DNA of 64,000 nucleotides from Egicoccus sp. AB-alg6-2 (GTDB taxonomy: Bacteria > Actinomycetota > Nitriliruptoria > Nitriliruptorales > Nitriliruptoraceae): positions 310,001-374,000 of the forward strand of contig NZ_JBGUAY010000006.1 of assembly GCF_041821025.1 (NCBI RefSeq). The letters are read 5' to 3'. Positions within the stretch are counted from its first letter, which is position 1, and each line of letters opens with the position of its first letter. The position numbers were made by a program, and so were the translations under genes. The notes under the pieces were generated by a model that was not told the origin of the DNA, searched no databases, and saw only the letters and a list, made by a program, of their open reading frames with translations. Shown here piece after piece: positions 11,573 to 52,998 of the stretch.

Positions 11573-11587
11573 GCATGACGCCCGCCG

Positions 11588-18533: not shown

Positions 18534-19211
18534 TCAGCTGGCGGCGGCGGAGACCTCGTTGAGCTGCTCGTAGAACGACAGGATCTGCAGTTCCGTGGAC
18601 ATGTCCACCGTGCGGACGGTGATCTGGTCAGGAACCTCGAGGTGGCCCGGGGCGAAGTTGAGGATGGCCGTGACACCCGCGGCGACCACCTCCTCGGCGA
18701 CGGCCTGGGCGCGTTCTGCGGGGGTGGTGAGCACCGCGATGGTGATGCCGTGGTCGCGTACGAGCGTCGGGAGGTCGGAGGGCGGCCGCACGACGTGCTC
18801 CCCGACCGGCGTGCCGATCTTGGCCGGGTCGGCGTCCACCAGCGCCTCGACCCGGAAGCCGCGGCGCGAGAAGCCGTCGTAGCTGGCCAGGGCGCGACCG
18901 AGGTTGCCGATCCCCACGATCACGACGGGGCGGTCATCGGTCAGCCCGAGCACGGTCGAGATCTCGGTGGCCAGCTGCGCCACGGTGTAGCCGACCCCGC
19001 GCGTGCCGTAGGTGCCGAGGAACGACAGGTCCTTGCGGACCTTCGCCGAGGTGAGGCCGGACGCCTTGGCGAGGTCGTCGCTGGAAAGGGTCTGTCGCCC
19101 CGCGTCGGCCGCCTCGACCAGTACCTGCAGGTAGCGCGGCAGTCGGGCGACCGTGGCCTCGGGGATCCGCCGCTGCGACACGCCCGCCCTCCGTTGGTCG
19201 TGGCCGGTCAT
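18534..19211 (-). CDS. rex: Redox-sensing transcriptional repressor Rex
   Basis: This is a 225-residue protein. An N-terminal winged helix (about 15-85, with RRIPEATVARLPRYL and ASGLTSAKVRKDLSFLG) is followed by a Rossmann domain with VGIGNLGRAL. Rex senses the NADH/NAD+ ratio and represses respiratory genes when NADH is low. Its place directly upstream of hemA matches the rex-hemACD order of streptomycetes, suggesting it controls heme supply and perhaps the respiratory operons in this window. Confidence 0.95.
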   Translation of the reverse strand: MTGHDQRRAGVSQRRIPEATVARLPRYLQVLVEAADAGRQTLSSDDLAKASGLTSAKVRKDLSFLGTYGTRGVGYTVAQLATEISTVLGLTDDRPVVIVGIGNLGRALASYDGFSRRGFRVEALVDADPAKIGTPVGEHVVRPPSDLPTLVRDHGITIAVLTTPAERAQAVAEEVVAAGVTAILNFAPGHLEVPDQITVRTVDMSTELQILSFYEQLNEVSAAAS

Positions 19212-19290
19212 AACGCAACCGGGCCGTCGATGCTCGAGCGAGGCTACGTGGCTCGTGCGGACCGGCCAATTCGTCCCATCGGGCGGGCGC

Positions 19291-19560
19291 TCAGGCGCTG
19301 CGTCGCGCCTGTCGGACCGCGGCCCGGACGCTGCCGGGCGGCACCTCGAGTTCGGCGACCTCGCGGCCGTCGACCACGACCACCGGCACCCGCACGCCGT
19401 AGCGCGACACCAGCACGTCGTCGCCGTCGACGTCGACGTGCGTCACGTCGGCACCCCGTGCCTCGCGCGCGACGATCGCCTCGGCGCGCCGGCACAGCCC
19501 GCAGGTCGCACGCGTGTAGACGAGCACGGCTGGCCGACGGGCACGACGGCGCAGCCGCAT
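19291..19560 (-). CDS. Glutaredoxin-like protein (DUF836 type)
   Basis: This is an 89-residue thioredoxin-fold protein with the CxxC site CGLC (TRATCGLCRRAEAIVA) and the conserved proline in YGVRVPVVVVDGREV. It probably handles thiol redox in the cytoplasm. Small glutaredoxin-like genes beside rex and hem genes are common in actinobacteria. The ATG at 19560 overlaps the upstream ligase stop by one base (TGATG). Confidence 0.85.
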   Translation of the reverse strand: MRLRRRARRPAVLVYTRATCGLCRRAEAIVAREARGADVTHVDVDGDDVLVSRYGVRVPVVVVDGREVAELEVPPGSVRAAVRQARRSA

Positions 19561-21113
19561 CAGGACGGCTCGCGCAGTTCACGGCGGCGGACCTTGCCGC
19601 TGGCCGTGAGGGGGAGCTGGTCCACCACCTCGATGCGGGTCGGGCACTTGTAACGGGCGAGGCGGGCGCGGCAGACATCGCCGAGCCGTTCGACGTCGAT
19701 CGTGTCGTCGCGGGCCACGACGTGGGCGACGACCGTCTCCCCCGTGAGTGGGTGGTCCGCGCCGACGACCGCGGCATCGAGGACCTCGGGATCCTCGAGG
19801 AGGACGCGCTCGACCTCGCGCGGATAGACGTTGAAGCCGTTGACGATGATCAGGTCGCGCTTGCGGTCGACGAGGAAGAGGTAGCCGTCGGCGTCCCGGG
19901 TCGCGACGTCGCCGGTCCGCAGCCACCCGTCCGCGGTCAGCGCACGTGCGGTCGCCTCGGCATCTCCGTGGTAGCCCTGGAACACGTTGGGGCCGCGGAC
20001 CCAGACCTCGCCCGGGTCACCGTCCTCCACGTCGCGTCCGTCGTCGTCGACCAGGCGCAGCTCCACCTGCGGCAACGGCAGTCCGACGGAGCCGGCGCGC
20101 GGCCGGAGCCCCATGGCGTTGCTGGTGACGGACGGGGACGCCTCGGTCAACCCGTAGCCCTCCTCGATGGTCACCCCGGTCGCGGCCGCGAACGCCTCGA
20201 GGGCCGCGGGTGGCAGCGGTGCCGCTCCGGACACCGCCAACCGCAGCGTCGGCAGCGACGCGTCGTCGAGGTGGCCGCCCCGGATCCAGGCGACGTAGAT
20301 CGAGGGTGCCCCGAGCAGCACGGTGACCCCGTGCTCGCTCATCGCCCGCAGCGTCGCCGCCGGGTCGAAGCGCTCGACGAGCACCATCGTCGCTCCCGCC
20401 GTCAACGCGGCACCGAGTCCCACGTTGAACGCGTAGATGTGGGCCAGCGGCAGCACCAGCAGGACCACGTCGTCGGCGGTGACCTCGAACCGGCCCGCCA
20501 GCGACTGGTCCTGGTTGGCCGCGAGGTTGCCGCGCGAGAGCATCGCGCCGCGCGGCCGTCCCGTCGTGCCCGAGGTGTAGACCAGCGCACCGAGATCGTC
20601 GGGGGCACGGTCGACCGGGCGCGGTTCACCGGCGACGTCCCGAAGCGCGGACCATGTCGGCAGGTCGTCGTCCGGCAGGGCGCCGGTCGGCAGGTCACCC
20701 GCGGATGCCGCCGACACGATGCGGAGGCCGTCGAGGTGGTCGGCGAGCTCGACCACGGCGGCAAGGCGTTCGGGACCCACGACGGCGACCGAGGCGCCGC
20801 TGTCGGCCAGCGCGTGACGCAGCTCGTCCGGCGCCAGGCCGGGCAGCAGTGGGACCACGGCTGCGCCGGCGCGAAGGGTCGCGGCGGCCACCTCGACGAA
20901 GGTGACGTTGGTGCCGCAGATCAGCGCCACGCGGTCCCCCGGGCCGACCCCCAGGCGCTGCAGGGCCGCCGTGCCGGCATCGACGCGGGCGTGCAGTTCG
21001 CCGTACGTGAGACGGCCGCCGTCCCACACCAGCGCGGGGTGGTCGGGACGCTCGGCGGCGGCCCGACGCAGACGGGCGGCCACGTCGACCGGTGGTGTGC
21101 CGTTCACGCGCAC
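19560..21113 (-). CDS. AMP-dependent acyl-CoA synthetase/ligase
   Basis: This is a 517-residue adenylate-forming enzyme. Motifs are the P-loop YTSGTTGRPRGAMLSRGN, the YGLTEASP motif, the GWLRTGDVATRDADGY hinge region and the C-terminal catalytic lysine in PLTASGKVRRREL. It activates a carboxylic acid to acyl-AMP and then acyl-CoA; overall similarity suggests fatty or other carboxylic acids, but the substrate is not readable from sequence. It is likely co-transcribed with the glutaredoxin-like gene. Confidence 0.9.
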   Translation of the reverse strand: MRVNGTPPVDVAARLRRAAAERPDHPALVWDGGRLTYGELHARVDAGTAALQRLGVGPGDRVALICGTNVTFVEVAAATLRAGAAVVPLLPGLAPDELRHALADSGASVAVVGPERLAAVVELADHLDGLRIVSAASAGDLPTGALPDDDLPTWSALRDVAGEPRPVDRAPDDLGALVYTSGTTGRPRGAMLSRGNLAANQDQSLAGRFEVTADDVVLLVLPLAHIYAFNVGLGAALTAGATMVLVERFDPAATLRAMSEHGVTVLLGAPSIYVAWIRGGHLDDASLPTLRLAVSGAAPLPPAALEAFAAATGVTIEEGYGLTEASPSVTSNAMGLRPRAGSVGLPLPQVELRLVDDDGRDVEDGDPGEVWVRGPNVFQGYHGDAEATARALTADGWLRTGDVATRDADGYLFLVDRKRDLIIVNGFNVYPREVERVLLEDPEVLDAAVVGADHPLTGETVVAHVVARDDTIDVERLGDVCRARLARYKCPTRIEVVDQLPLTASGKVRRRELREPS

Positions 21114-21257
21114 TCCCTCTTCCGCTGCCCGGATCGCCGTGGTCGCGCAGCCTAGGGGCCGCCCCCTCCGCCGCGTGCCGTCCGGGGCGACCGGTCGGCG
21201 GTGGGACGCCGCGGCGACCGGAGGGCGGTTGGCGCCACGGGGCTACGCTCGAGCGAC

Positions 21258-32239: not shown

Positions 32240-32683
32240 CTAGCTCACCGCCGCCCGGGCGGTCTCGACCGCGCGGACCCGGAAGGCGGCACGCTCGGAG
32301 GACAGGGCGCGGCCGAACACACCTACCACACGTCCCTCGCAGGTCACCGTGACGGCGGCACCGGCGACCGCCGGCGTACACGCGACGTCCCGGAGGGTGT
32401 CGTCGTGGGCGAACGCCGCCAGGCGGAGGTTCGCAAGCTCGGCGGCACGCGCCGGGTCGAGGTCGGGGACGTCGTCGAAGGCGTACAGCGATCCCAGGTC
32501 GAGTCCGGCGACGGCGTCGTTGGCGAGGCTCGCGGCGAGGTCGCCGAGCCGTCGCTGCTGGAGGTGGACGGCGGCGGCGTCGAAGGCCAGCGAGGCCAGG
32601 ATCACCAGCACCAGCACGGCGGCAGGCATCAGGACCAGCGTGTTGCCGTGTTCCTCGGCGAGCCGCGGGCGATCAGAAGCCAC
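32240..32683 (-). CDS. TadG-like pilus-locus membrane protein
   Basis: This is a 147-residue protein. Its N-terminal stretch EEHGNTLVLMPAAVLVLVILASLAFDAAAVHLQQRRLGD is the typical TadE/TadG start: a Glu just before one hydrophobic helix, then an extracytoplasmic part. GTG 32683 overlaps the previous gene by 11 bases. In Tad systems such minor pilin-like proteins take part in pilus assembly. Confidence 0.75.
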   Translation of the reverse strand: MASDRPRLAEEHGNTLVLMPAAVLVLVILASLAFDAAAVHLQQRRLGDLAASLANDAVAGLDLGSLYAFDDVPDLDPARAAELANLRLAAFAHDDTLRDVACTPAVAGAAVTVTCEGRVVGVFGRALSSERAAFRVRAVETARAAVS

Positions 32684-33137
32684 AGCCGGGAACCTCCCCC
32701 TGCCGGACGGCGAGCCCCGAGCGGTAGGGGTCGACGACCTCGCGGTGCGCGGCGACGACCTCGAAGGGCGCCAGCCGCGTCGACAGACCGGGCAGCACCA
32801 GTGCCGGTACCTCGATCCGGACCTCGAAGGCGACTTCCTGGCAGCGCTCGAGCCCGAGTAGCAGCGGCATGAGCCGTGCCTCGGCGTCGACGCCGTGACC
32901 CTCGAGTGCCTGGCGGGCGGCGACCGCGGCCACCAGGGACTGGTCGGCGTCGACAGGCGCTTCGACGGCCGCGCGGACGGCTTCGCGCGCGGCGGCACTG
33001 GCGGCGAACTTGGTGTCGACGACCGCCCAGGCGTTGACGACCACGAGCGTGCCCAGCACGAAGATGAGCACCCCGAAGGCGAGCGCCTCGAGGCCGGCGA
33101 CGAAGCCCTGTTCGTTCGCGTCGACGCCGTCGGTCAT
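32673..33137 (-). CDS. TadE-like pseudopilin (second)
   Basis: This is a 154-residue protein with NEQGFVAGLEALAFGVLIFVLGTLVVVNAWAVVDTK near its start: a prepilin-like Gly before a hydrophobic helix with Glu. The rest is a soluble domain with two cysteines (near 112 and 152). ATG 33137 overlaps the preceding TadE-like gene by 4 bases. It is probably processed by the pilus peptidase. Confidence 0.7.
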   Translation of the reverse strand: MTDGVDANEQGFVAGLEALAFGVLIFVLGTLVVVNAWAVVDTKFAASAAAREAVRAAVEAPVDADQSLVAAVAARQALEGHGVDAEARLMPLLLGLERCQEVAFEVRIEVPALVLPGLSTRLAPFEVVAAHREVVDPYRSGLAVRQGEVPGCGF

Positions 33138-33496
33138 CGGCCGCGCTCGATGCGCACGGCGGCGGCGCGGTCGATGTGCCCGCCCACCCCCTCGACGAGG
33201 CGCGCCGGCGACGCGGTTCGTACCCGCAGGTGCAGTTGGTCGCCGTCGTCGAGGCAATGGACGGTGGCGCCGGCCCCATGCGCACCCATGCCGGCACGCA
33301 GGTGGGTCTCGGCCAGCTCGCAGCCGCCACCGTGCTCCGAGGCGGCACGGCGGGCGGCGTCGAACACGACGCCGGTCACCACCGAGGTGGCGTACAGGTG
33401 CGTCAGCGTCTGGGTCGCCAGCATGATGAAGGCGAGGAAGATGGTGACGCCGAAGACCGCGGTGACCGGACTGGTCCCCGACTCACCGGCGCCCAT
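33134..33496 (-). CDS. TadE-like pseudopilin (first)
   Basis: This is a 120-residue protein with one N-terminal helix (SPVTAVFGVTIFLAFIMLATQTLTHLY) and a short soluble domain with two cysteines. It begins one base after the flp stop and overlaps the next TadE-like gene by 4 bases. Family assignment rests on layout and position. Confidence 0.65.
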   Translation of the reverse strand: MGAGESGTSPVTAVFGVTIFLAFIMLATQTLTHLYATSVVTGVVFDAARRAASEHGGGCELAETHLRAGMGAHGAGATVHCLDDGDQLHLRVRTASPARLVEGVGGHIDRAAAVRIERGR

Positions 33497-33497
33497 C

Positions 33498-33683
33498 TCA
33501 ACTGCCGATCGAGTCCACGGTGTTCTGGATGTCCGTGGTCGCGTCGACGAAGATGCCGTTGAACGCCGACCACATGGCGGCGCCGAGCAGCGCCATGATC
33601 AGGACCACGATCGCGGCCGAGATGACGCCTTCACCCCCCTGGTCACGGCGAAAGCGGAGCAGGTGGCTGAGCGTGGTGTTCAT
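33498..33683 (-). CDS. Flp-family type IVb pilin
   Basis: This is a 61-residue protein: a basic leader (MNTTLSHLLRFRRDQGG) followed by EGVISAAIVVLIMALLGAAMWSAF and a short polar tail. This size and layout match Flp pilins, whose leader is removed after a Gly before polymerisation into the Tad pilus fibre. The 103 bases to tadC suggest it may have its own promoter. Confidence 0.8.
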   Translation of the reverse strand: MNTTLSHLLRFRRDQGGEGVISAAIVVLIMALLGAAMWSAFNGIFVDATTDIQNTVDSIGS

Positions 33684-33786: not shown

Positions 33787-34695
33787 TCAGCGTCCCAGGA
33801 AGCCGTCGAGCGCCCGGGTGAACGGGATCGCGATGAAGATGACACCGGGCAGCAGGGTCGCCACGGTGACCGGGATCCACACCTGTTGCCCGCGCCGCTC
33901 CAGCCGTTCCACCAGTTCACGCTGGACGTCGTGCCGGATGGCCCGGGCTTCTTCGGCGATGAGACGGCCGAGATCGCTGGCTTCGCGATTGAGGGCGAGA
34001 ACGGCGACGAACCGGTCCACGGACGCGACGTCGGCGAGTTCGGCCCACTCCTGCAGGGCCCGCTCCTCGCTCAGGCCCTGCCGGACCCGCGTCAGGACCC
34101 GTCGCAGGTCGCTGGCCACCGCCCCCTGACCCCGACGTGCGACGCGGTCGAGCGCGCCCGCCAGCGAGTAGCCGGCTGCGAGCAGCATGGCGACCTGTTC
34201 GGCCACCACGGGCAGCTCGAGGTGCACGGTCCGCTTCCATCGCGTCGACGACGAACCGACCTGGTGCTCGACGAGCAGGAAGGCGAGCAACAGGCTGCCG
34301 ACGGTGAACAGCAGCGCGACGGGGGCGGAGGGACGCAGCGCGGCGCTGGACAGTCCGCCGGCGAGCAACGCCGCCAGGGACCAGCCGACCTGCCGGACCC
34401 TGAACTCGGTCACGTCGACGTCGGAGTGGATCCGCCGCAGCTTGCGGTCAAGCTCCTCGCTCACGCCGAACAGGCGCGAGAAGAGCTCCCCCAGGCGCCG
34501 AGCCGCCGGACCGACGGCGTCCCGGAAGGTCTCGACCGAGAACAGTCCGGCCGAGCCCGCCACGCCCATCCCGCCGGGAACGTAGGGACCCAGACGTGCG
34601 ACGAGGCTCGGCCGCGAGAACCACCGCAACTCGGCCAGGAGCAACGTCAGCCCGGTCCACAACGACAGCCCCGTCCCCACCAGCAGCGCGGTCAC
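33787..34695 (-). CDS. tadC: Tad pilus inner-membrane protein TadC
   Basis: This is a 302-residue protein of the type II secretion F-domain family, with hydrophobic helices near residues 1-20, 105-150 and at the C-terminal end, and the F-domain stretch VAEQVAMLLAAGYSLAGALDRVA. TadB and TadC form the membrane platform that the TadA ATPase drives. GTG 34695 overlaps the tadB stop by 4 bases. Confidence 0.88.
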   Translation of the reverse strand: MTALLVGTGLSLWTGLTLLLAELRWFSRPSLVARLGPYVPGGMGVAGSAGLFSVETFRDAVGPAARRLGELFSRLFGVSEELDRKLRRIHSDVDVTEFRVRQVGWSLAALLAGGLSSAALRPSAPVALLFTVGSLLLAFLLVEHQVGSSSTRWKRTVHLELPVVAEQVAMLLAAGYSLAGALDRVARRGQGAVASDLRRVLTRVRQGLSEERALQEWAELADVASVDRFVAVLALNREASDLGRLIAEEARAIRHDVQRELVERLERRGQQVWIPVTVATLLPGVIFIAIPFTRALDGFLGR

Positions 34696-35609
34696 GCTCG
34701 CTCCCCGGTCCCCGAGCCGAGGAAGACCCGCTGCTCCTCGGGCAGCCGCAGCAGTTGGCCTGCCCACGCCCAGCAGCCCGCGATCAGGGCCAGCGCCACG
34801 AGCACGAACACCTGGCCGGCGTCGCTGGCATAGGCGGCGCGCCCCTCGCCGATGGACAGGCCGACGAACGCCATACCGATCGGCACAAGCAACACGAACA
34901 ACCGGGCGAAGCGGACCGCGGCCTGCTTCGCCCGGGCATCCTTGCGACCCTGCAGGTCCTGCATCCGGTCGGCGGCAAGCGCCTTGAGGCGGGCGTCGAC
35001 CTCGGTGCCACCCACGTCGTGGGCGATCAGCAGGGTCTCGCAGACGGCGTCGGCCGTCGGATCGGCGAGACGGTCGCGCAGGACGTCGAGCGTGCGTTCG
35101 AAGTCGGTGGAGATCAGCCACTCGCGGTGCGCGGCAGCGAAGGCGGGACGCATCTCCTCGGGTCCGCGCATCCCGACCGTGAGCAGGGCCTGCGGGATCG
35201 AGCGACCGAGCGTCACGGCGTTGAGCCGGATCTCCTCGATCAAACGTGGCCACGCCTCGCGCGCGAGCTCGCGCCGACGGTGCCGTCTGGCCCGTGCCGA
35301 CCACAGCGGCGTCCCGGCCGCGACCATCCCGATCGCCACCGGCACGACGACGCCGTCGTACATCGCCCAGCCCAGCGCCGCGGCCACCGCGAACAGCACG
35401 GCCATCACGGCCGCCAGCTCGACGGGGCGCACCCGCTGCAGGCCGGCCTGCACCAGGAACTCCTGGGCGCGCAGCCGTCGGGGACGTCGTGCCGCCGGTG
35501 ACGGCCCCACCCCGACCCCCCGCCAGCGCAGCACCAGGGCGGTGTAGACGAGGTAGACCCCGTACCCGGCGGTGAGGGCCAGCACCAGGCCCTGCAGCCC
35601 TGCGCTCAC
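34692..35609 (-). CDS. tadB: Tad pilus inner-membrane protein TadB
   Basis: This is a 305-residue F-domain protein. It has an N-terminal helix (GLVLALTAGYGVYLVYTALVL), a central pair of helices, the soluble F domain with AVTLGRSIPQALLTVG and a C-terminal pair of helices. It is paired with TadC. GTG 35609 overlaps the tadA stop by 4 bases, so tadA-tadB-tadC are translationally coupled. Confidence 0.88.
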   Translation of the reverse strand: MSAGLQGLVLALTAGYGVYLVYTALVLRWRGVGVGPSPAARRPRRLRAQEFLVQAGLQRVRPVELAAVMAVLFAVAAALGWAMYDGVVVPVAIGMVAAGTPLWSARARRHRRRELAREAWPRLIEEIRLNAVTLGRSIPQALLTVGMRGPEEMRPAFAAAHREWLISTDFERTLDVLRDRLADPTADAVCETLLIAHDVGGTEVDARLKALAADRMQDLQGRKDARAKQAAVRFARLFVLLVPIGMAFVGLSIGEGRAAYASDAGQVFVLVALALIAGCWAWAGQLLRLPEEQRVFLGSGTGERA

Positions 35610-36433
35610 CGGCCACCCCCCGACCCCGGTCCGTCCCCCGATCCGAAACCCGTTCCGCCCGAGGTCGATCCGGCGGCTCCCGGACCGGCGGCCTCGAGCA
35701 GCGCACGGACGTCGAAGCCGGCGGTCGCCAACGGGCGGGCGCACCGCACCGGCACGTTGCCCGACCAGGTGAGCGCATCGTCGGGTCCGGTCCGGCGGAA
35801 CAGCTCGGTCACGGTGAACCTCGACCCGCCCTCTCCCGACTGCAGGTCCTCGACGGCGACGATCTCCTCGACGCGCGGCTTGCCGTCGACCCGACGGCAC
35901 TGGACCACGACGTCGACCGCCTCGGTCACCAGCGAGGTGAGTGCCAGCATCGGCAGCTCCGACCGCGTGTCGGCGAGCTGGCTGATGAACCGCAACCGGG
36001 ACAGGGCCTGGCGCGCCGAGCCGGCATGGATGGTCGTGTAGCCCTTCACGCCCGAGGACAGGGTGAGCAGCAGCGGCAGTGCCTCGTGGTCGCGGACCTC
36101 GCCGACGATGGCGACGTCGGGCGCCATGCGCAGGAAGCCCGCGACCAGCCGCCGCAGATCGACGCCCGGCCGGTCCGGTCGGGCGGCGCGCGTCTGCATC
36201 GAGGCGACGTTGGGCAGCGGGACGTCGACCTCGAAGACCTCCTCCGCGGTCACGACGCGCAGGCTCGGGTCGAGTTCGGCGGTGCAGCACGACAGCAGGG
36301 TCGTCTTCCCCGACCCGGGCGGACCGGCGAACACCATCGACAGGGTCGCCCGCGCGGCCGCCCGCAGGAACGTCGCGACCGGCTGCGACAGCGCACCCCG
36401 GTCGACGAGCTCGTCGAGCGAGCGGATCGCCAC
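35606..36433 (-). pseudogene. tadA: tadA/cpaF pilus ATPase, 3' part, interrupted by the prophage
   Basis: About 275 residues remain. The ATPase core is intact: Walker A GPPGSGKTT, Walker B region APDVAIVGEVRDHEALP, and the His-box GYTTIHAGSARQALSR. The N-terminal domain (usually 120-170 residues) is missing. Homology begins at about KFTGVAIRSLDELVDRGALS, the stretch just before Walker A. Directly upstream the frame enters non-homologous sequence next to an integrase. A GTG at 36433 could start a short protein, but a working pilus motor is unlikely. The 5' part should lie beyond the other prophage end. Confidence 0.85.
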
Positions 36434-36493
36434 ACCGGTGAACTTGTGGAGAACACACGTGGCGTGTCCCAGCCGATCCGTAGGATCTACCCG
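36434..36493. other. Prophage/host junction (attL), approximate
   Basis: This 60-base stretch lies between the broken tadA frame and the integrase start. tadA-like coding fades within 36434-36450. A short dyad, ACACG-TGG-CGTGT (36455-36467), lies beside it, as in serine-integrase attachment sites, which are 40-50-base imperfect dyads. The exact crossover cannot be fixed without the partner site. Confidence 0.6.
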
Positions 36494-37873
36494 ATGAAAC
36501 GCTGCGCGATCTACACCCGCCTGTCCAAGGACGCCGACGGCACCGAAACCGCCACCGCACGGCAGGAAGCTGACGCCCGCGCGTTCGCAGCCGCCAAGGG
36601 CTGGACGGTCGCCGAAGTCTTCAAGGACGTCGACCTCTCCGCGTACCGGAAGGTCACCCGCCCCGGCTACGAGTCGATGCTGACCGCTCTGGCATCCCGC
36701 CAGGTCGACGGTGTGCTCGTCTGGAAGCTCGACCGGCTCGTACGGTCACCCGCCGAGTTCGAACGCTTCTGGGCCATCTGCGAGACCCACGACGCGACCC
36801 TCGCCTCAGTCAACGAACCCGTCGACACCTCCAACGAGCTCGGCCTCGTGATCGTCCGCATCCTCGTCGCGTTCGCCCGCCTCGAGTCCGCCACCATGAG
36901 CCTCCGGCTGCGCTCGGTCAAGGCAGCGTCCGCCAAGGCCGGACGGCCCAAGCACGGCGGACCTCGGGCGTTCGGGCTCACCGACGGGTGGACCGACATC
37001 GTCCCTCACGAGGCCGACATGATCGTCGACGCCGCCGCGCGTGTGCTGGCCGGCGAGTCGATCCGGTCGATCGTGCTCGACTGGAACCGTCAGTCCCTCA
37101 CCACTAGCACCGGCAGGCCCTGGTCCGCGCAGACGCTACGGAACCTGCTGCTGCAACGGCGGCTCTGCGGCCAACGTGAACATCGCGGCGAGATCGTCGC
37201 TGATGGCGTGTGGCCGGCCATCCTCGACGTCGACACCTGCGACCGGCTCCGTACCGTCCTCACCGACCCTGCCCGAACCGTCCCCCACGCCGGCCGGACC
37301 TTCCTGCTCTCAGGCATCCTCCGCTGCCACAACTGTGACAGCCGGATGCGCGGATCGATCGCCACCAACGGCCGGCGCCGCTACGCCTGCCCGCCCAAGC
37401 CGGAAGGGTGCAACGGCACCGTGATCTTGGCCGACCCGACCGACCAGCTGCTCGCCGACATGGTTTGCGATGCGCTCGACTCCCCCGACCTCGCTTCAGC
37501 CCTCGGCCGACCCGACGACGATGGTGACGACCACGCCGCCCGGATCCGGGTGCTGATCGGCAGACTCGACGACCTGGCCGGCATGTGGGCGAACGGCGGC
37601 ATCTCCCGTCGCGAGTGGATGACCGCCCGTACATCCATCGACCAGCAGCTCGAGCAAGCGCGCGCCGCGGCCGCCGCGACAACCCGCAACCGGCAGGCCG
37701 CCCCGTGGGTCGGCCGCGGCATGCAGCTACGAGCTCGGTGGGACGACGGGCTGGACTTGGAGTTTCAGCGTGCCGCCGTTGGAGCCGTCATCGACCGGGC
37801 CGTGATCCGAGCTGCCGTGAAGGGGCGCAATCGGTTCGACGCGGACCGGATCGTCGTAGAGTGGCGAGCCTGA
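36494..37873 (+). CDS. int: Large serine recombinase (phage integrase)
   Basis: This is a 459-residue protein. The resolvase domain (1-150) starts MKRCAIYTRLSKDADG with catalytic Ser11. A recombinase domain (about 160-260) follows with the typical GGPRAFGL and WSAQTLRNLLLQRRLCGQREH. A zinc ribbon (CHNCDSRMRG to CPPKPEGC, about 275-310) and a helical tail with possible coiled coil complete it. This full layout indicates an active enzyme that joins attP and attB without host factors. The ATG lies 60 bases from the tadA break. Confidence 0.95.
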   Translation: MKRCAIYTRLSKDADGTETATARQEADARAFAAAKGWTVAEVFKDVDLSAYRKVTRPGYESMLTALASRQVDGVLVWKLDRLVRSPAEFERFWAICETHDATLASVNEPVDTSNELGLVIVRILVAFARLESATMSLRLRSVKAASAKAGRPKHGGPRAFGLTDGWTDIVPHEADMIVDAAARVLAGESIRSIVLDWNRQSLTTSTGRPWSAQTLRNLLLQRRLCGQREHRGEIVADGVWPAILDVDTCDRLRTVLTDPARTVPHAGRTFLLSGILRCHNCDSRMRGSIATNGRRRYACPPKPEGCNGTVILADPTDQLLADMVCDALDSPDLASALGRPDDDGDDHAARIRVLIGRLDDLAGMWANGGISRREWMTARTSIDQQLEQARAAAAATTRNRQAAPWVGRGMQLRARWDDGLDLEFQRAAVGAVIDRAVIRAAVKGRNRFDADRIVVEWRA

Positions 37874-37890: not shown

Positions 37891-38187
37891 ATGCCTGCTG
37901 GGTCACGGACATGCAGCGTCGACGGTTGCGATCGTGAGCATGAAGCCCGCGGCTGGTGTTCGGCTCACTACGCCCGCTGGCGTACACACGGCGACGTGCA
38001 GGCCGGAGTGCCCGTGATGGAGTTCCGGTCGGGCCGTACTTGCGACGTCGCCGAGTGTGGTGAGGTCCACTACGCGCGAGGCTGGTGCCTGCGGCATTAC
38101 ACACGCTGGTGGGGACGACAGCGGAAAGCCCCCGCCGCCGACCCGAACGTCGACAACGGGGGCGGTGACGCCGCTCAAGTCAGCTGA
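37891..38187 (+). CDS. Small protein with two Cys/His zinc-finger-like repeats, next to int
   Basis: This is a 98-residue protein. Two repeats share C-x4-C-x8-C-x2-H: CSVDGCDREHEARGWCSAH and CDVAECGEVHYARGWCLRH, each followed by Y-x-R-W. Such fingers occur in actinophage HNH-type and DNA-binding proteins. ATG 37891 has GGAGG six bases upstream and lies 17 bases after int, so the two are probably one transcript. It could be a DNA-binding accessory of integration. Its end overlaps the convergent next gene by 8 bases. Confidence 0.7.
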   Translation: MPAGSRTCSVDGCDREHEARGWCSAHYARWRTHGDVQAGVPVMEFRSGRTCDVAECGEVHYARGWCLRHYTRWWGRQRKAPAADPNVDNGGGDAAQVS

Positions 38188-39970
38188 CGCAGGCCACCCC
38201 TTGGTTGATGATGTCGCGGATGCGGGCGGGCCCGATGCCCGAGACACGCTCGAGGTCCTCGACACGGGAGAACGGCCGCAGCCTGACGATCTCGGCGGCA
38301 CGGTCAGGTCCGATGTGGATGATCCGTTGCAGGTCGTCGGTCGACGCCGTGTTGATGTTGACGCAGCCCGGTGCCGGGTCGGCCGGCGGTTCGGGTGCCG
38401 GAGGCGGCGGCGCTGGTGCCGGCGGTGGCGGCATCGGAACTGGGTTCGCCGGCGGATGTGTGGTGTGCCCGTCGGCGACGAGCTTGGCCATGAACCGCGC
38501 GAGGAAGGTGCCCATTTGTGCGCGGGTCACGTCTCCACCGGGGTTGTAGATTCCGGGCGCGGCTCCGCCGGTCAATCCGGCTTGGGCGACGGCGTTGATG
38601 CGGGCCTGATGGGTGTCGCCGTCGACGTCGGTGAAGAAGTCGCGGCCGGCCGGTAGCGGGCTGCCGGTGCGGGCTTCCCAGGCGTTGGCGAGGAAGGTCG
38701 CCATCTGGGCGCGGGTGACGTTGCGTGCCGGCGCGTAGCGGCCTCCACCTACTCCGCCGACGACACCGAGTTCGGCAAGCTGGTTGATCCGCAGCTCGTG
38801 GGCGTTGCCGTTGTCGTCGGTGAAGTGGTTGGCCGGTGAGTTCGGCAACGTGCCGCCGGAAAGCTCGATGGTGCGGGCCACGAACGACGCCATCTGGTCG
38901 CGAGTGACGGTGCCGGTCGGGTTGTAGGTGCCGTCGCGGTTGCCTTGGGTGACGCCCCACCAGCCGATGCAGTCGATCGCGAACGCGTGGCTGCCCGAGG
39001 TGACGTCAGGGAAACGGTTGCGGGGAGTTCCTTCGCACGCGGGTCCCACCGGTACCGGCTGGGGCGGCTGCACGCCGCTGGAGGTGTAGGTGCGGCCCTG
39101 CGAGCTCGTGATGAAGAAGTCGCCGTCGAAGCCGGCGGTGATGGTGATGTCGCCATCGACCGCTGCGCCGGTGGCGTCGGCGGTCTGGAACAGCGTGGTG
39201 CCGGCGGTGGTGTAGCGCGAGACCACGGTCGACGACGGGTGGCCGTAGCTGTTGCGGCCGACGGTGAGCACCGCCGCTTCGGGACGGATGGTGTCGATCA
39301 GGCTGGCGGGCGAGGAGGTGGAGGAGCCGTGGTGGGACACCTTCCAGACGTCGAGGCGGCCAAGCGTGGATGCGAGCGCCGTTTCGCCGGCGGACAGCAG
39401 GTCGCCGCAGGTGCCCTTGGTGAACTCGAAGTGTTCGACCTTGAGACACATCGAGCGGGCGTTCTCATCCGAGGTCGGGAACGAGGCGGTGTCGTTGGAC
39501 GAACCGGACCACAGCACTTCGAAGAAGGTGCCGTCGCAGAGGTCGAAACTGTCGCCGCTGGCCACGATGTGTTCGCGGCCGGCGGCGGAGGCCATCAGGT
39601 CACGGTAGGTCTGCGAGTTGTACGCCGGTGCGCCGCGGTGGACGATCGTGGCGCCGGTCGCTTCAGCGACGGCGCGGATGCCGCCAATGTGGTCGGCATG
39701 CATGTGCGATGCGGCGATCCAGCGGACCTTGTCGCGGGCGCCCCACCGGTCAAGCAGGTCTAGCACCGCGCCATCTGCACCGACGTTCACGTCGACGATG
39801 CCCACGTCTCCGCACGCGCCGCGGTAGACGGCCGTGTCGCCGTTGCCGTGATTGAGGTAGACGACCTCGAGATCACCGACCACGATGGCCGGGCCGGCGG
39901 CAGCCATGTTGGCTGGCAGCAGCATGGCCACCATGGCGATTGCAAGCATGAGGGCAAGACGTCGTGGCAC
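38180..39970 (-). CDS. Secreted ComEC-type metallo-beta-lactamase protein with SLH repeats and ComEA-type HhH domain
   Basis: This is a 596-residue protein from GTG 39970 (AGGGGG upstream). A signal peptide (1-25) is followed by an MBL domain (about 30-300) with SHMHADH (His89, His91, Asp93, His94), VSHHGSSTSS (His213) and GRNSYGHP, the ComEC/Rec2 pattern. Three S-layer-homology repeats (about 318-500), a Pro-rich linker (about 510-540) and a C-terminal helix-hairpin-helix (NINTASTDDLQRI to GIGPARIRDII) complete it. It is probably a cell-surface DNA-processing or DNA-binding hydrolase. Position beside int marks it as prophage cargo. Confidence 0.85.
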   Translation of the reverse strand: MPRRLALMLAIAMVAMLLPANMAAAGPAIVVGDLEVVYLNHGNGDTAVYRGACGDVGIVDVNVGADGAVLDLLDRWGARDKVRWIAASHMHADHIGGIRAVAEATGATIVHRGAPAYNSQTYRDLMASAAGREHIVASGDSFDLCDGTFFEVLWSGSSNDTASFPTSDENARSMCLKVEHFEFTKGTCGDLLSAGETALASTLGRLDVWKVSHHGSSTSSPASLIDTIRPEAAVLTVGRNSYGHPSSTVVSRYTTAGTTLFQTADATGAAVDGDITITAGFDGDFFITSSQGRTYTSSGVQPPQPVPVGPACEGTPRNRFPDVTSGSHAFAIDCIGWWGVTQGNRDGTYNPTGTVTRDQMASFVARTIELSGGTLPNSPANHFTDDNGNAHELRINQLAELGVVGGVGGGRYAPARNVTRAQMATFLANAWEARTGSPLPAGRDFFTDVDGDTHQARINAVAQAGLTGGAAPGIYNPGGDVTRAQMGTFLARFMAKLVADGHTTHPPANPVPMPPPPAPAPPPPAPEPPADPAPGCVNINTASTDDLQRIIHIGPDRAAEIVRLRPFSRVEDLERVSGIGPARIRDIINQGVACVS

Positions 39971-39991
39971 AAGATCCCCCTGTTCCCCTGT

Positions 39992-40016
39992 TGGCGCCGC
40001 GGCCCCCGCGGCGCCA
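39992..40016 (-). promoter_or_regulatory. Strong hairpin in the leader of the MBL-SLH-HhH gene
   Basis: TGGCGCCGCGG (39992-40002), loop CCC, and CCGCGGCGCCA (40006-40016) form a perfect 11-pair stem. It ends about 21 bases before the GTG start. It could limit transcription or translation of the gene, or be an operator. Confidence 0.5.
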
Positions 40017-40122
40017 GACACCCTAGACGTTCGGCCAGGTTGACGCCGAACGTCCGGCTACTGCCCGCCCCGCGATGGAAAAAGGCATCACTTCAACCAA
40101 AAGTCCGGCCACCCGACGAACA

Positions 40123-41352: not shown

Positions 41353-42141
41353 CTACCGGTGGCTACCCAGCGCGTGAGCACGAGCCTGTAGGTCCACGGC
41401 GGTCCAGAGCGACACGCGGCCGGTCACCTCGAGGCGTCGTTCCTGCTGGTAGGCGAGCACCGCGGCCTCGGTCTGCGGCCCGAAGTCGCCGTCGAGCTGA
41501 CCCGTGTAGTGGCCTAGCTGGATGAGCCGTTCCTGCATCTTGCGAACGTCGCCGCCGCGGTCACCACGCTTCATCTCGTACTCCTGCTCGATGGGTGTCG
41601 CCGGTGGGACTGCGTCCTGCGACTGTTGGCGGATCGGTTGCCGGTCCCGCAGGCGCGCGTGACGGCCGAGCGGGTCGCCTGGGCAGCCGGTGGAGTTCAG
41701 ATCGGCATGGCGCACGACACGATCACCGGCACCCAGCCGACGTAGCTCGGCGATCGCCCAGTCGATGGCGGCCAGCGCGAGGGCCGTGGGGGTCTGGCGT
41801 GCACCGCCGATCCATACGATGGCGTAGAAGCGCAGGTTGCCGTCGTTGCTGCCGTTCGCCGCGGTGCGGAGGCCGGCGCCGCGTCCGGCGAACACGTAGC
41901 CGTGCTGGCACACACCGAGCGTGTAGGCGAGGTCCGCCCACCCTCGCGAGTCCATGTGGAACCGCTGCCAGGACAGCCAGGTCGCAATGCACTGGGCGTG
42001 GCTGGCGATCGGGACGTTGTCGCCGCCGTAGTGCAGGGCGCAGCCGCCGCGGGCGGCGTCGATGTTGCGCGAAATCGACTTCGGTGGCCGCATCCCGAGG
42101 GTGGCGCGAGAAAGGAACCCTGCGTGGGTCGCGGTGGTCAT
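41353..42141 (-). CDS. Endolysin: N-acetylmuramoyl-L-alanine amidase with peptidoglycan-binding domain
   Basis: This is a 262-residue protein. The amidase_2 domain has candidate zinc ligands His37 (CALHYGG), His145 and Cys153 (RHADLNSTGCPG). A linker leads to a PG_binding_1 domain (about 191-250, GDRGGDVRKMQERLIQLGHY to GDFGPQTEAAVLAYQ). It cuts the amide between muramic acid and the stem peptide to release virions. It overlaps a 39-residue ORF that links it to the holin-like gene. Confidence 0.92.
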   Translation of the reverse strand: MTTATHAGFLSRATLGMRPPKSISRNIDAARGGCALHYGGDNVPIASHAQCIATWLSWQRFHMDSRGWADLAYTLGVCQHGYVFAGRGAGLRTAANGSNDGNLRFYAIVWIGGARQTPTALALAAIDWAIAELRRLGAGDRVVRHADLNSTGCPGDPLGRHARLRDRQPIRQQSQDAVPPATPIEQEYEMKRGDRGGDVRKMQERLIQLGHYTGQLDGDFGPQTEAAVLAYQQERRLEVTGRVSLWTAVDLQARAHALGSHR

Positions 42142-43438: not shown

Positions 43439-44260
43439 TCAGCCGCGCCAACCCGGTGCGACCTTGTCGAGCGCGCGGGCGAGCATGGCCGCCATCTGGT
43501 CCCGCCGGACTGGCGCGCCGGGCTTGAACGTCCCGTCCGTGTTGCCCGCGATGATCCCGGCGGCCGCCAGGTCTTCGATGTCGCGGGCGTGGGTGGCGGT
43601 GTCTGGCACGTCGACGAAGCGTCCCATCGGGTCGTCCTCCTGGCTGGCCGCCACGACGTCCGGCGTGACGGTGGCGGTGGGGATGTCGCGGGTGAGGACC
43701 AGGCGTCGGAAGGCGTCGAGGTCGTCGGTCCAGTGCACGAACCTCGGCCAGCGCCTTTCCCATTGCTCGGGGCAGAAGGCGGCGACGAACAGGTCAGCGA
43801 ACGCCTCGTTGAGCCGGGACGGGTAGTGGTTGGCGTGCGACGACCAGTCCTCGTTGGCGTGGCCGGCGTCGCGGTGGTCGTGATCGAAGTGGCCGAGCTG
43901 CGGCAGCGGACGGCGGTGCATCAGCTCGGACAACCGGGCCCGGTCAATGTTGCCGAGCGTGGCCGAGTCGACGGCATGGCCAAGCTCGTGCGCGATGGTG
44001 AACGGCAGCGCCGACGGCCGCATGTCTGTGTTGAGCACCAGCGACGCGCGCGGGTAGCCGTCGGCGGCGGAACCGGCGGCCCACCACTGGCCGGTGAACT
44101 GCATCGACATCGGCCGCCACAACACGCTGAGACGGCCGCCGGCGGTCCGCTCGAGCCACAGGGCCAGCCGTTCCCACGGGTAGGACGAACCGTCCACCAC
44201 GGCAGCGAAGATGTCGGACCTGCCGGAGGGAGCATCAACGACGTCGAACATGGAGTCCAT
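43439..44260 (-). CDS. Zinc metalloprotease with C-terminal SLH repeat, tail locus
   Basis: This is a 273-residue protein. IAHELGHAVDSA (His91, Glu92, His95) is a zincin active site, and NEAFADLF further on may give the third ligand. The C-terminus (about 210-270) is one SLH-type repeat: RFVDVPDTATHARDIEDLAAAGIIAGNTDGTFKPGAPVRRDQMAAMLARAL. There is no signal peptide. It is the last gene after the tail proteins, so it may be carried on the tail tip or act during lysis. The ATG overlaps the previous stop by one base. Confidence 0.75.
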   Translation of the reverse strand: MDSMFDVVDAPSGRSDIFAAVVDGSSYPWERLALWLERTAGGRLSVLWRPMSMQFTGQWWAAGSAADGYPRASLVLNTDMRPSALPFTIAHELGHAVDSATLGNIDRARLSELMHRRPLPQLGHFDHDHRDAGHANEDWSSHANHYPSRLNEAFADLFVAAFCPEQWERRWPRFVHWTDDLDAFRRLVLTRDIPTATVTPDVVAASQEDDPMGRFVDVPDTATHARDIEDLAAAGIIAGNTDGTFKPGAPVRRDQMAAMLARALDKVAPGWRG

Positions 44261-45258: not shown

Positions 45259-46468
45259 TCGTCAACTCCTGCGCCCTTGTCCAGCTAATGGTCCCGTCAA
45301 CGGTGACCCAGCCCACGGTGTCTTCCACCCCGCCCCAAGTCAGCGCCTGCTCCGACAGCCGCCAGTCCGACACCAGCAACACGACCGTGGCCGCACCGCC
45401 CGTCAACGTCCACGAGAGACGCTCCACGAACCCGACCAGCGACCGGCCCAAAGCCCGTGGCAGGCGCCGCAGACGAACCGGCGCGCCGGGTTCGAGCTCG
45501 AACATGGCCCGCCGCATGCCGACGTCCAGATCGCCGGTGACGTGCACGGTCAGGTCTTCGACCCGAACGGCAGGGCGGGACCGAAGGCCGACGTACCGGT
45601 CGGCACGACCTTGCGCGTCGCCCGCATTAACGAGCCGGGTCTGCACCGTCTCGTGCAGCACCTCGCCCCCGAGATCGGCGATGGCCTGCTCGTCCCGCGC
45701 CGACACGACACCCACCTGATCCCCGTCGATGTACTCGACAGCGACGGAGTTGACGACGTCGCCGATGGACTGGACCGCTTCCAGGCCGGGAGCCGGAGTC
45801 GGCAGGTCGACGTAGCCCGCGGTGGCACGGGTCAGGCGCCCGACCGCATCGGTGTAGCGGATGGCGCCGCGCCGCGTTTCTTCGAGCTGCCCGAGCCCGT
45901 CCTGGGCTGCCTGCAACACCACCGACGCCGCATCGCGCGGCTCCGGGTCGCCTGCGAGGAGATACTGCCCCGGCGTGTCGACCTCCACCCCGACTGGGTC
46001 CGCGTCGATCCAACTCCGGTCAGGAAACGACGCCCAGCTATACGGCCCGGCCTGGGTCCAATCGATGGCGAGCGTGTCGAGCACGGCCGCGACCCTGTCC
46101 CCATCCCGCTGCTGCGGGTACCCGCCGTCCGGGACGCGTCCTCGATGGAGGCGGGCGAGCGGCCCGGCTGCGGTGAGGTGGTACCTGACCGGGGCGCCGT
46201 CCTGCCACATTGCCGTGCGGCAGTTGACGATGGTGCCCGTGAACAGCCGAACCGGCCCGTCGCCCGCGTCGATGTCGACAGTGATCGGGCTCCTGAGTCG
46301 CGGCCGAGGGCGGGTGCCGGACTCGTCGTGCACTGTCAGCTTGAGGTAGCCGGCCTTCGCCTGCTCATCGACGCCGCCACGACCGGTAGCGATCTGCGCC
46401 CGAGCGAGCGTGAACGTGGTCTCATCCACCCCATCGATGGTGATGGCGTAGGACGGCTGCCAGTTCAT
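45251..46468 (-). CDS. Minor tail protein (baseplate/Tal-like)
   Basis: This is a 405-residue protein. The start is beta-rich (YAITIDGVDETTFTLARAQIATGRG) and the body has repeated beta elements, as in tail-tip proteins encoded after the tape measure gene. Assignment rests on position and general pattern. Its ATG overlaps the tape-measure stop by 4 bases. Confidence 0.7.
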   Translation of the reverse strand: MNWQPSYAITIDGVDETTFTLARAQIATGRGGVDEQAKAGYLKLTVHDESGTRPRPRLRSPITVDIDAGDGPVRLFTGTIVNCRTAMWQDGAPVRYHLTAAGPLARLHRGRVPDGGYPQQRDGDRVAAVLDTLAIDWTQAGPYSWASFPDRSWIDADPVGVEVDTPGQYLLAGDPEPRDAASVVLQAAQDGLGQLEETRRGAIRYTDAVGRLTRATAGYVDLPTPAPGLEAVQSIGDVVNSVAVEYIDGDQVGVVSARDEQAIADLGGEVLHETVQTRLVNAGDAQGRADRYVGLRSRPAVRVEDLTVHVTGDLDVGMRRAMFELEPGAPVRLRRLPRALGRSLVGFVERLSWTLTGGAATVVLLVSDWRLSEQALTWGGVEDTVGWVTVDGTISWTRAQELTSG

Positions 46469-48699
46469 ACCACCGGCCCGAACTCGCGGCGGGATCGGCG
46501 AGTCGCCGTCTCCAGCGCCCGCACCACACCCTCCGGGTCCATCATGGTGCCGGTCACATGGATGGGCTGGTGGTGGTGCACCTCGATGACCCGCTCGCCG
46601 CCGAGAACCGCGCCTGGCACCCGTCCACCTGCCGCCGCAGCGACCGCGCCGGCGTCCACAGTCAGCGGGATCTCCGCCGTCATCGTCCCCAGCAGCCGCT
46701 CAACCTGCCGCCACTCGTCTTCCATACCGCGGCCGAGACCGCCGATGATCTCGCGCCCGATGTCGGTCAGCAGGACCCGGTCCTTCTCGATCGGGCCCTT
46801 CAGATTGCGGATCTGGCCGCCAAGTCCGGACAACCAGTCCCGCGCGTTGCTCCAGGCATCACGCATCCCGGCGGTGAGACCGTCGATGATCTGTCGGCCG
46901 ATCCCGCGCAGGAGATCGCCGGCATTGCCGAACGCCGCCACGATCCGGCCGGGCAGGGCACGGAAGAACCCGACGACCTCGCCGACCCGCTCCTCGATGT
47001 CCCGCTTGAACAGCACCATCTGCCGTGCCGACTCGGTGGTGAACCGGGTGAACCCACCGTCCGTGGCATTGTGCAGCGCCCGAATCACCCGGTCCGAGTC
47101 GCGATCAATAGCGCCGGCCAGGACCTCCATCGACGTCGACAGGTTCGACGAAGCCCACTCGCCCGCACCGACCAGCCGTTCGAACGACGTGACAGTCCTG
47201 CCGGCGGCCGCGTCTGCGGTGTCCGCCGTGACGTCGTGCTCGCGGCGCATCAGCTCGAGCACATTGCTGATGACGTCCCCCGCAGCGGTGACCACCGTGG
47301 CCAGGTTGTTCCAGATGCCCTCGATCCGTGGCCAATGCTCGCTGATGACGGCCAAGAACTCGTCGACCGCAGGCTTGGCCGTTTCGGTCCACCACACCTT
47401 GAGCGCCTGGCCCATCTCGACGGACTTGTCCATCACCTGCTGGAACCGCTCACGGATGACGGGCCCGTTCTCGTCCCACCAGGTCTTGACCGTGTCGAAC
47501 GCCTCACGAGCCTGAGATCCCATCGCCTGGGCGCCACCGATGATCTCGTTGACGTTGCGGCCGACCTCGGTCGCGCCCTGCTGCCAGCCGGTCACGAACG
47601 ACATGATCGACTCGATCATGGACTCCGCCGCCGCCTGGATGTACGGGGCGAGGAGCTCGCCGACCTGCAGCTTGAGCTCGCCCCAGAGCGCACCGATGCG
47701 TTCCCGGGCGCGTTCCAGGCCCTGGTTCATCTGGTCGTACGCCTGCTCGGTCGCGCCAGCAGACTCGGCCATCTCGGCCAGGGCGGCCCGGTAGTCGTCG
47801 GTGCCGTCGGACGCGAGCGCGAGCGCGGCGTTACCGGCCTCCACGGATCCGAACATGTCTTGCAACGCGACGCCGTTGTTATCGGCCGCCTGCTGCATGA
47901 TGTCGAGCGCGTCAGCGACGTTGCCGCCCTGGGCGATGAACTCGGCGAACCCGACCCCGGCGATCTCCTTGAACGAGTCGGACGCCTTGCCGCCCTCCTT
48001 CGACAGCTCAACCAGCAGCTGCCGCATCTGCGTGGTTGCCACCGAGGTCGGCACACCCTGCGCGGTCATCTGCGCCATTGCGGCGGTGATGTCCTCGAAC
48101 CCCACCCCGAGCGCGCTCGCGGTGGGCAGGACGTTGTAGAGCGACCCGGACAGCTCCTCGAAGTTCGTCTTGCCCAGCCTCACGGCGGTGAACATCAGGT
48201 CCGAGGCCCGGCCGGCGTCCATGACCTCGGCGCCGTAGGCGTTTACGACCGACGTGATCCCGTCTACCGCTGTTTCGAGTTGGGTGACGCCACCGACAGC
48301 GGCCTTCTGGGCCACCTCGAGGAACGCGAACACGTTGTCGGGCGGCACACCGGCAGAGAGCGACTGGTAGAGCGCAGGGACGACCTTGTCGGTGGTGACG
48401 CCCATCTCGACCGCGAACTTGCGGACGTCCTTCTCCATCTTCCCCATGGCGTCGGCCGACGCGCCGGGGAGGAGGGTGAAGACCTCGTTCATGCCGCGCT
48501 CGAACGAGGCGAACTCCTTCACCCCGACGGCGGCGAATCCGGCGACTGCAGCTCCGGCCACGGCGACGCCGGCCAGCGCGGCCTTGCCGAGGCCGGCGGC
48601 GAAGCTCCCGAACTTCGAGTCGGCTTTGTCGACCCCGCGGTCGAAGTCGGAGTCGTCGAGGGTGAGGAAGGCCGTCAGCTCGCCAACGGTCAGCGCCAC
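46465..48699 (-). CDS. Tape measure protein
   Basis: This is a 744-residue protein. A short start (MALTVGELTAFLTLDDSDFDRGVDKADSKFGSFAAGLG) leads to a hydrophobic stretch and the TP901-type tape-measure core (ASFERGMNEVFTLLPGAS, AVGGVTQLETAVDGITSVVNAYG). Long alpha-helical and hydrophobic parts follow. At about 0.15 nm per residue this would set a tail near 110 nm (family rule). GTG 48699 has AGGAGG seven bases upstream. Confidence 0.93.
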   Translation of the reverse strand: MALTVGELTAFLTLDDSDFDRGVDKADSKFGSFAAGLGKAALAGVAVAGAAVAGFAAVGVKEFASFERGMNEVFTLLPGASADAMGKMEKDVRKFAVEMGVTTDKVVPALYQSLSAGVPPDNVFAFLEVAQKAAVGGVTQLETAVDGITSVVNAYGAEVMDAGRASDLMFTAVRLGKTNFEELSGSLYNVLPTASALGVGFEDITAAMAQMTAQGVPTSVATTQMRQLLVELSKEGGKASDSFKEIAGVGFAEFIAQGGNVADALDIMQQAADNNGVALQDMFGSVEAGNAALALASDGTDDYRAALAEMAESAGATEQAYDQMNQGLERARERIGALWGELKLQVGELLAPYIQAAAESMIESIMSFVTGWQQGATEVGRNVNEIIGGAQAMGSQAREAFDTVKTWWDENGPVIRERFQQVMDKSVEMGQALKVWWTETAKPAVDEFLAVISEHWPRIEGIWNNLATVVTAAGDVISNVLELMRREHDVTADTADAAAGRTVTSFERLVGAGEWASSNLSTSMEVLAGAIDRDSDRVIRALHNATDGGFTRFTTESARQMVLFKRDIEERVGEVVGFFRALPGRIVAAFGNAGDLLRGIGRQIIDGLTAGMRDAWSNARDWLSGLGGQIRNLKGPIEKDRVLLTDIGREIIGGLGRGMEDEWRQVERLLGTMTAEIPLTVDAGAVAAAAGGRVPGAVLGGERVIEVHHHQPIHVTGTMMDPEGVVRALETATRRSRREFGPVV

Positions 48700-51872: not shown

Positions 51873-51954
51873 GGTGGGCCTCCTTCCCTGTCGTGGGATG
51901 GGTGAGGTGGCCCGTCGCGCCGGTGCGTGCGATCACCGGCGCGACGGGCAGACG

Positions 51955-52998
51955 TCAGGCCGCCGGCGGGCTGTCGCCCACGCCGTCGACGAACGAGCCG
52001 ACGGCCCACGCCTCCGGGTAGACGAGCTTGGCGCCGTACACATGGAGGCCCTTGACCGCGTCGCCGAAGCGGCGTTCGGGCCGGTACGCCTCGACCTTGT
52101 TGATCTGCTCGGCAAACGACAGCGCCATCGGGTGGCCAGCGATCACCTTGTCGTTGTCGGTGTCCACGCCGTCGGTGCCAGACGGGGCGTTGCGGGACGT
52201 CAGCAGGTTGAACCCGGCCGCACGCCCGACCTCGCCGTTGAGCAGCGGGCTGTTGCCGCCGCCGTAGTCGCCGGCGGAGGTGAACCGCTTGTCCAGGGAC
52301 AGGAGCGACGCGAACCAGGTCGGCAGGACCGCGTAGCGGCCCTCGGACGGCACGCCCGCGTTGTCGAGCTTGAGGGCAAGCCGGTTGAGGTAGAAGTAGG
52401 CGTGAGCAGGGTCGGAGATCGACACCGGGTCGACGTCGGTGCCGATCCGGTTGGCGGCGGCAGCGTCGGCGTGGAAGCTCGCGAGGTGGCGGTCGGCCAC
52501 GTCACGGAGCTGGAACGCGGCGGACTCCATACCGCCGTCCATCACCGACCCGGCAGCCTGGGCCGCGTCGACGTCGTCGACCATGAAGTTGAAGTACTTC
52601 TCCTGGTCGATGAGGAGCTGGCGGGCTTCGGTGGACAGTTCCTCGGGCGGGTCGATGTCGTCCCGCTCGTAGTCCTTGATCGTGACCTCGCCGACCTGGT
52701 TGATGGTCACGGTGTCGCCGGCCTGCGAGATGGTGCCCTGGTAGTTGCGGTTGGCGACGTTGGGCTGCCCGAAGATGTGGGCGTGCCGGAGCTTGCGGAG
52801 CAGCTCCCGGATCCAGAACTCGGGCACGAAGCTCGAGATGTCGCCGGTCTGGGCGGCGAGGTCGAAGCGGGAGCGGACGCCCTTGATGGGGGCGGGCATG
52901 AGTGCGACCGCGGCGAAGGCGAGTGCGGCGGCGATGGTCGGGAACCCACCGAGCAGTGCGGTGATGGCCCCGAGGATGAGCGCGAGAAGTGCGAGCAC
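51955..52998 (-). CDS. Major capsid protein, P22-coat-like, with hydrophobic N-terminal extension
   Basis: This is a 347-residue protein. From about residue 55 the pattern SSFVPEFWIRELLRKL, VANRNYQGTISQAGDTV, TEARQLLIDQEKYFNF and VDDVDAAQAA matches coat proteins of actinophages with the P22-like HK97 fold. The first 34 residues (MLALLALILGAITALLGG...) form two hydrophobic helices, unusual for a capsid protein. GTG 52998 has AGGAG eight bases upstream, so this extension is probably translated. It lies downstream of the scaffold and tRNA genes. Confidence 0.85.
   Translation of the reverse strand: MLALLALILGAITALLGGFPTIAAALAFAAVALMPAPIKGVRSRFDLAAQTGDISSFVPEFWIRELLRKLRHAHIFGQPNVANRNYQGTISQAGDTVTINQVGEVTIKDYERDDIDPPEELSTEARQLLIDQEKYFNFMVDDVDAAQAAGSVMDGGMESAAFQLRDVADRHLASFHADAAAANRIGTDVDPVSISDPAHAYFYLNRLALKLDNAGVPSEGRYAVLPTWFASLLSLDKRFTSAGDYGGGNSPLLNGEVGRAAGFNLLTSRNAPSGTDGVDTDNDKVIAGHPMALSFAEQINKVEAYRPERRFGDAVKGLHVYGAKLVYPEAWAVGSFVDGVGDSPPAA

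Follow-up and report, generated by a model that had tools for sequence, protein, structure and literature searches.

The tadA gene of Egicoccus sp. AB-alg6-2, predicted to encode the assembly ATPase of one Tad pilus machine, is interrupted by a prophage of 36,589 bp. This appears to be a temperate tailed phage whose large serine integrase inserts it at a 12-bp core within tadA, and its departure would restore the gene exactly. The insertion and its reversal can be read from the assembled DNA, and we lean towards the view that tadA is a new target of prophages that evade curing by disabling transformation, the loss of transformation being a presumed consequence. The most likely reason for the choice of site would be that a DNA-uptake pilus is disabled and the prophage thereby protected from curing by transformation, as has been proposed for prophages in comYC, comK and comM.

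The split tadA gene and its locus

The 64,000-nucleotide stretch analysed here (the window, G000:C6:310001-374000, G000 being the organism's own genome) contains these genes of the tad locus:

35606-36433 (-), tadA 3' part (275 codons) with the RecA-like ATPase domain; matches T2SSE and is 82-86% identical to intact TadA of the same genus
34692-35609 (-), tadB-like gene, open frame, downstream of tadA; assigned by position and transmembrane pattern, its T2SSF match being weak and below the cut-off
33787-34695 (-), tadC-like gene, open frame; T2SSF match of 2e-10
32673-33680 (-), three small ORFs, each with one N-terminal hydrophobic segment and no Pfam match; characterised by operon position and sequence only

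In the 275-residue frame we recognise the C-terminal, RecA-like half of an ATPase of the TadA/CpaF type (T2SSE, E=4e-26), and its closest solved structures are those of CpaF (8rkd and 9e24). Whereas orthologues run unbroken across the split point in two genomes of the same genus (G002 and G003) and in many Nitriliruptoraceae, the window frame departs from them at ...KFTG|VAIRSLDEL, with phage sequence upstream in the same frame and an intact serine integrase starting at 36494, 60 bases past the ORF. The first-pass annotation had proposed precisely this, a tadA split by a serine-integrase prophage, and had looked to the far prophage end for the 5' part, which was indeed recovered there when the own genome was queried with the intact N-terminal half. 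It lies at C6:383014-383544(-), on the same contig and strand (86% identity, E=1e-100), about 9 kb outside the window and 36.6 kb from the 3' part, and it ends in ...LVNIRKFTG followed by seven phage-encoded residues (VKLTLAH) and a stop.

The remainder of the locus is open: tadZ-like and CpaB genes lie upstream of tadA, and two T2SSF proteins and small pilin-like ORFs downstream, such that TadA, TadZ/CpaE, CpaB, TadB, TadC and small prepilins (recognised by position only) are encoded in one operon. The three small ORFs are read as a putative Flp-type pilin and TadE-like pseudopilins. Because the N-terminal and RecA-like domains of TadA are carried by separate genes 36.6 kb apart, the machine would be unpowered in the lysogen, and excision would be expected to give the power back.

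The first-pass annotation had taken a complete second tadA elsewhere in the genome as grounds for giving up its reading. To the letter such genes exist, as the host has three other TadA-family ATPase loci (on C4, C2 and C1), each with one or two TadB/C-like genes, but as replacements they fail: their products are only 34-38% identical to the split TadA, and the lysogen-free G002 has paralogues of the C4/C2/C1 kind beside an intact tadA, which argues that they are separate machines. These three loci and a fourth resembling a type IVa pilus are all intact and count against the idea that the insertion disables competence, while the intact host ComEC and ComM count for it. To our knowledge, natural transformability has been shown for no member of the Nitriliruptoraceae, and this too weighs against. 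In M. luteus, tad genes are required for transformation and both of its two tad clusters are needed (PMC4322843), so the host paralogues do not exclude the phenotype. Akin to the locus described here, the M. luteus tad operon is actinobacterial, comprises TadA, B and C with small pilin-like genes, and belongs to a genome with more than one tad cluster; the functional data, however, come from M. luteus, whereas the Nitriliruptoraceae tad system is known from its genes.

The prophage, its attachment sites and its excised form

The prophage and its genes within the window are as follows:

36435-64000, prophage, window part; runs on to C6:383023 (36,589 bp in total); defined by its junctions, phage gene families and a 100% identical excised copy
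36435-36446 (-) (C6:346435-346446), left attachment-site core, CAAGTTCACCGG; the longest stretch common to both junctions, present as a single copy in the attP of G003
36494-37873 (+), large serine integrase of 459 aa, oriented divergently to the tadA 3' part; identical copy in G003:C18
38180-40021 (-), cargo protein next to the integrase, predicted to be secreted and combining a ComEC-like metallo-beta-lactamase (MBL) domain, SLH repeats and a ComEA-like helix-hairpin-helix; from Pfam, NCBIfam and solved ComEC domains
41353-42141 (-), endolysin with peptidoglycan-binding domain; phrog_1493 8e-34, PG_binding_1
46465-48699 (-), tail tape measure protein; phrog_991 2e-77
51955-52998 (-), major capsid protein; phrog_267 3e-66
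54450-55562 (-), minor capsid protein; Phage_min_cap2 4e-60
55764-57326 (-), portal protein; phrog_533 3e-92
58347-59627 (-), terminase large subunit; phrog_2 8e-45, Terminase_6N

The integrase carries the Resolvase, Recombinase and Zn-ribbon domains (PF00239, PF07508, PF13408; phrog_95, E=7e-88), as expected of an enzyme that integrates a prophage. Scaffold, connectors, a helicase loader, RusA, a Sak4-like annealing protein and an XRE-type regulator are encoded as well, and with head and tail structural, packaging, lysis and replication genes all represented, the element is, judged by its gene content, a complete-looking temperate tailed phage. The head-gene block also contains a tRNA-Met (CAT) at 53104-53175(-), predicted by ARAGORN.

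The core, which the first-pass annotation had asked to be located, is shared by both ends: its twin lies at C6:383024-383035 (window-scale 73024-73035, outside the window), and the positions of the two copies give the prophage its size. It spans codons ~178-181 of tadA, ahead of the Walker A motif at codons ~217-223 of the joined gene, and 11 or 12 bp of it are matched at the empty sites of G002 and G003. When the flanks are joined in silico they yield one open tadA frame of 456 codons (MTGHLV...NIRKFTGVAIRSL...), co-linear with its relatives. The split, the recovered 5' part, the shared core and the co-linear joined frame exclude chance as the cause of this arrangement.

The sister species G003, of the same genus, provided the excised counterpart. 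In its public assembly, an identical integrase (100%) is found on a separate contig of 36,484 bp (C18), which is the same phage in circularly permuted form, with its arms joined at one copy of the core, that is, as attP. Prophage and contig are 100% identical over 36,484 bp, two apparent SNPs being host bases just outside the core, and G003 has an intact tadA with neither attL nor attR. AttL and attR with a short common core, attB in empty relatives and attP in an excised form are thus all at hand. The complete identity across two species points either to a very recent transfer or to carry-over between samples; in either case, an excised form of the kind that the attachment sites predict does exist. 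The identical phage, integrated in one sister species and in attP form in the other, makes a ready experimental pair. The only phage sequence that C18 lacks is 105 bp at the contig end (window 51875-51979). Its reading as a cos or deletion site was dismissed, since this piece contains a perfect 16-bp GC-rich hairpin, beside the major capsid gene, that is probably a terminator and a sequencing block; a sequencing or assembly drop-out at the hairpin is the likely cause of the gap.

These data also bear on two other explanations. That the tadA halves had been wrongly joined to phage sequence is conceivable in a draft assembly of 24 contigs, but both junctions lie in one 422-kb contig with an exact common core and perfect restoration of the gene, and a second assembly contains this phage with its arms joined as attP, as predicted, so that we give an assembly artefact hardly any credence. 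A second proposal, which develops the suggestion of the first-pass annotation that the prophage may be a genetic switch for Tad pili, is a regulated switch in which condition-dependent excision without lysis turns the Tad pilus on, like the Listeria comK prophage or the sigK elements. With these the prophage shares a serine recombinase, an interrupted host gene and its precise restoration, here indicated by the joined frame; the attP form exists and the downstream tad genes are open. However, restoration in frame is expected from any conservative site-specific integration, and the element has a full lytic gene set, such that its excision may usually mean lysis. Host-timed excision without lysis is a property of the comK and sigK elements, whereas the present one is known from sequence alone; no regulatory or timing evidence emerged, and neither a recombination directionality factor (a class sharing little sequence) nor host-timed control was recognised in passing. 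The intact joined frame and the attP form bear out the claim that excision could restore tadA; its use as a switch we consider improbable, and prophages that disrupt competence genes (comYC, comK, comM) offer a better-supported comparison than sigK.

Other insertions in TadA-family genes and known parallels

A scan of IMG/VR with the window TadA family returned only two contigs, and the gene was broken in both. In G067 (IMGVR_UViG_3300034402_000002) phage sequence that includes tail genes runs directly into tadA, which starts only at codon 99. In G066 (IMGVR_UViG_3300031454_000254, contig 10303-21123) a single tadA carries two serine-integrase insertions: one at codon ~98, with the integrase ~30 bp from the junction, and one at codon ~255, where a 10.2-kb element flanked by TCCCGAACGT brings a serine integrase of its own; further on, at codon ~300, this tadA either degenerates or is interrupted once more. 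Two isolate-derived IMG/VR proviruses, L200 and L203, were found with one of these integrases rather than with tadA as query. In both (L200, 2510-2782; L203, 2195-2437) a TIGR03819 TadA fragment adjoins the integrase, starts at the Walker-A codons GKTTLL (222), and is truncated again downstream. Insertions in TadA-family genes have thus converged on codons ~98, ~180, 222 and ~255, and in an integrase tree of weak resolution the L200/L203 lineage (100/100) nonetheless stands apart from the window integrase. Since tadA was the query for most of these cases, no insertion frequency is claimed from them; breaks of tadA at contig edges (G011, G004, L131) were left out of the count. Scanning with the G004 integrase gave no match, and an alignment of seven integrases proved too divergent to serve as a scan profile. 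Insertions at other codons in other actinobacterial TadA-family genes suggest that such viruses profit from turning off the pilus, a possible importer of DNA.

The same observations have to be weighed against ordinary lysogeny, in which the integrase simply finds its site in a conserved part of an ATPase gene that the host can spare, and pilus loss is tolerated, bringing the phage no selected benefit. Serine integrases often lie in conserved coding sequence, and among the 31 genomes of the class that have window-type tadA a single one carries the insertion. Moreover, the related integrase of G022 adjoins a fragment interpreted as YbaK-like rather than as part of a competence gene, which counts against an effect on competence. 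A single conserved recognition site, however, would not explain four TadA codons and at least two integrase lineages, and the related element of G004 lies in comM; we regard ordinary lysogeny as possible but somewhat unlikely.

As a query against genome contigs and viral contigs, the window integrase found no close relative. The nearest is the G055 integrase (39-41%), which abuts a contig edge (G055:C19:1-100) where a short reverse frame (LEFFRCVTVEELRRRLDGG) shows a faint resemblance to the TadZ N-terminus, too short for a claim. G055 was also considered as a tad-locus insertion, with integrase and tadA on one contig, and rejected, as cpaB, tadZ and tadA are intact there.

That tadA insertions disable transformation finds its model in prophages of competence genes, whose choice of site is already recognised as a protection from transformational curing (PMC4774983, PMC12637031). 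Those in pneumococcal comYC, in comK of Listeria and in comM likewise interrupt the coding sequence of a gene whose product is a filament or DNA-processing protein, restore the gene on excision, and represent different elements converging on the same gene. They differ from the present case in the target, here the Tad pilus gene tadA in Actinomycetota with a presumed rather than demonstrated effect on transformation, and in that several codons are used here and one gene can hold two elements. According to the main text of PMC10083194, DNA competence genes are strongly overrepresented among the targets of serine integrases, distantly related enzymes target the same gene cluster, and comM is frequent, being the target of 12.4% of site-specific serine integrases; that text names neither tadA nor a pilus ATPase. 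Our literature search for prophages in tadA or pilus ATPase genes gave nothing pertinent, with the qualification that the supplementary tables of PMC10083194 may list tadA. The case is best classed with a known phenomenon, prophages disabling DNA uptake by insertion into its genes, to which it adds tadA as a target gene and Actinomycetota as a setting at the phylum level. Conflict between mobile elements and transformation is documented mainly by prophages that interrupt competence genes, and the cases discussed in the cited literature belong to Firmicutes and Proteobacteria. If a Tad ATPase is a recurrent target, the conflict would reach Actinomycetota too, and DNA uptake by actinobacterial Tad pili, which has been tested mainly in one species, would gain independent support.

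The comM element and the ComEC-like cargo

In G004, from another genus of the family, a serine integrase related to that of the window lies in a ~50-kb element (G004:C13:54624-105790) that splits comM into a part encoding residues 1-384 and another encoding residues 381-590. No exact repeat of at least 8 bp was found at the junctions, and a 3-bp TGG would rejoin comM in frame. This insertion is left unexplained by superinfection exclusion, which the first-pass annotation had raised in suggesting that Tad pilus loss shields the lysogen from pilus-using phages. Losing a surface filament could remove a phage receptor, but our data reveal no Tad-dependent phage for this host group, and we judge the explanation very unlikely.

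The window and G004 elements share a further trait. The G004 element encodes a secreted ComEC-like MBL protein that is 42% identical over the MBL part to the window cargo (38180-40021) and has a different anchor, namely repeats read as cell-wall-binding. The window cargo itself matches NCBIfam ComEC_Rec2 (1e-15) and comE (2e-9), and its best solved relatives are the ComEC beta-lactamase-like domains (PDB 30bt, 9ic4). In the cargo this domain has an HxHxDH motif (HMHADH) and is accompanied by a ComEA-like helix-hairpin-helix; unlike ComEC, the protein lacks the membrane channel part and is fused to SLH surface-anchor repeats. The domains of ComEC degrade the non-translocating DNA strand (PMC12455585). 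Besides the presumed loss of the uptake pilus, the cargo might help by degrading DNA at the cell surface, a weaker proposition, as a paralogue of 57% identity on the host chromosome (G000:C2:237209-238843) suggests that it may be an ordinary surface protein whose role is perhaps not phage-specific; another, of 60%, occurs in a sister genome (G001:C255:906-2429). A broader reading, which we hold to be doubtful, is that actinobacterial serine-integrase phages follow a two-layer anti-transformation programme, in which insertion into DNA-uptake genes (the Tad ATPase gene at several codons, comM) would be combined with a ComEC-like nuclease that is anchored at the surface, binds DNA through a ComEA-like domain and destroys what enters, rendering lysogens incurable until the phage excises. 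A second SLH-domain protein, at 43439-44260(-) in the tail and lysis region of the window prophage, might be a part of the virion that binds the host surface.
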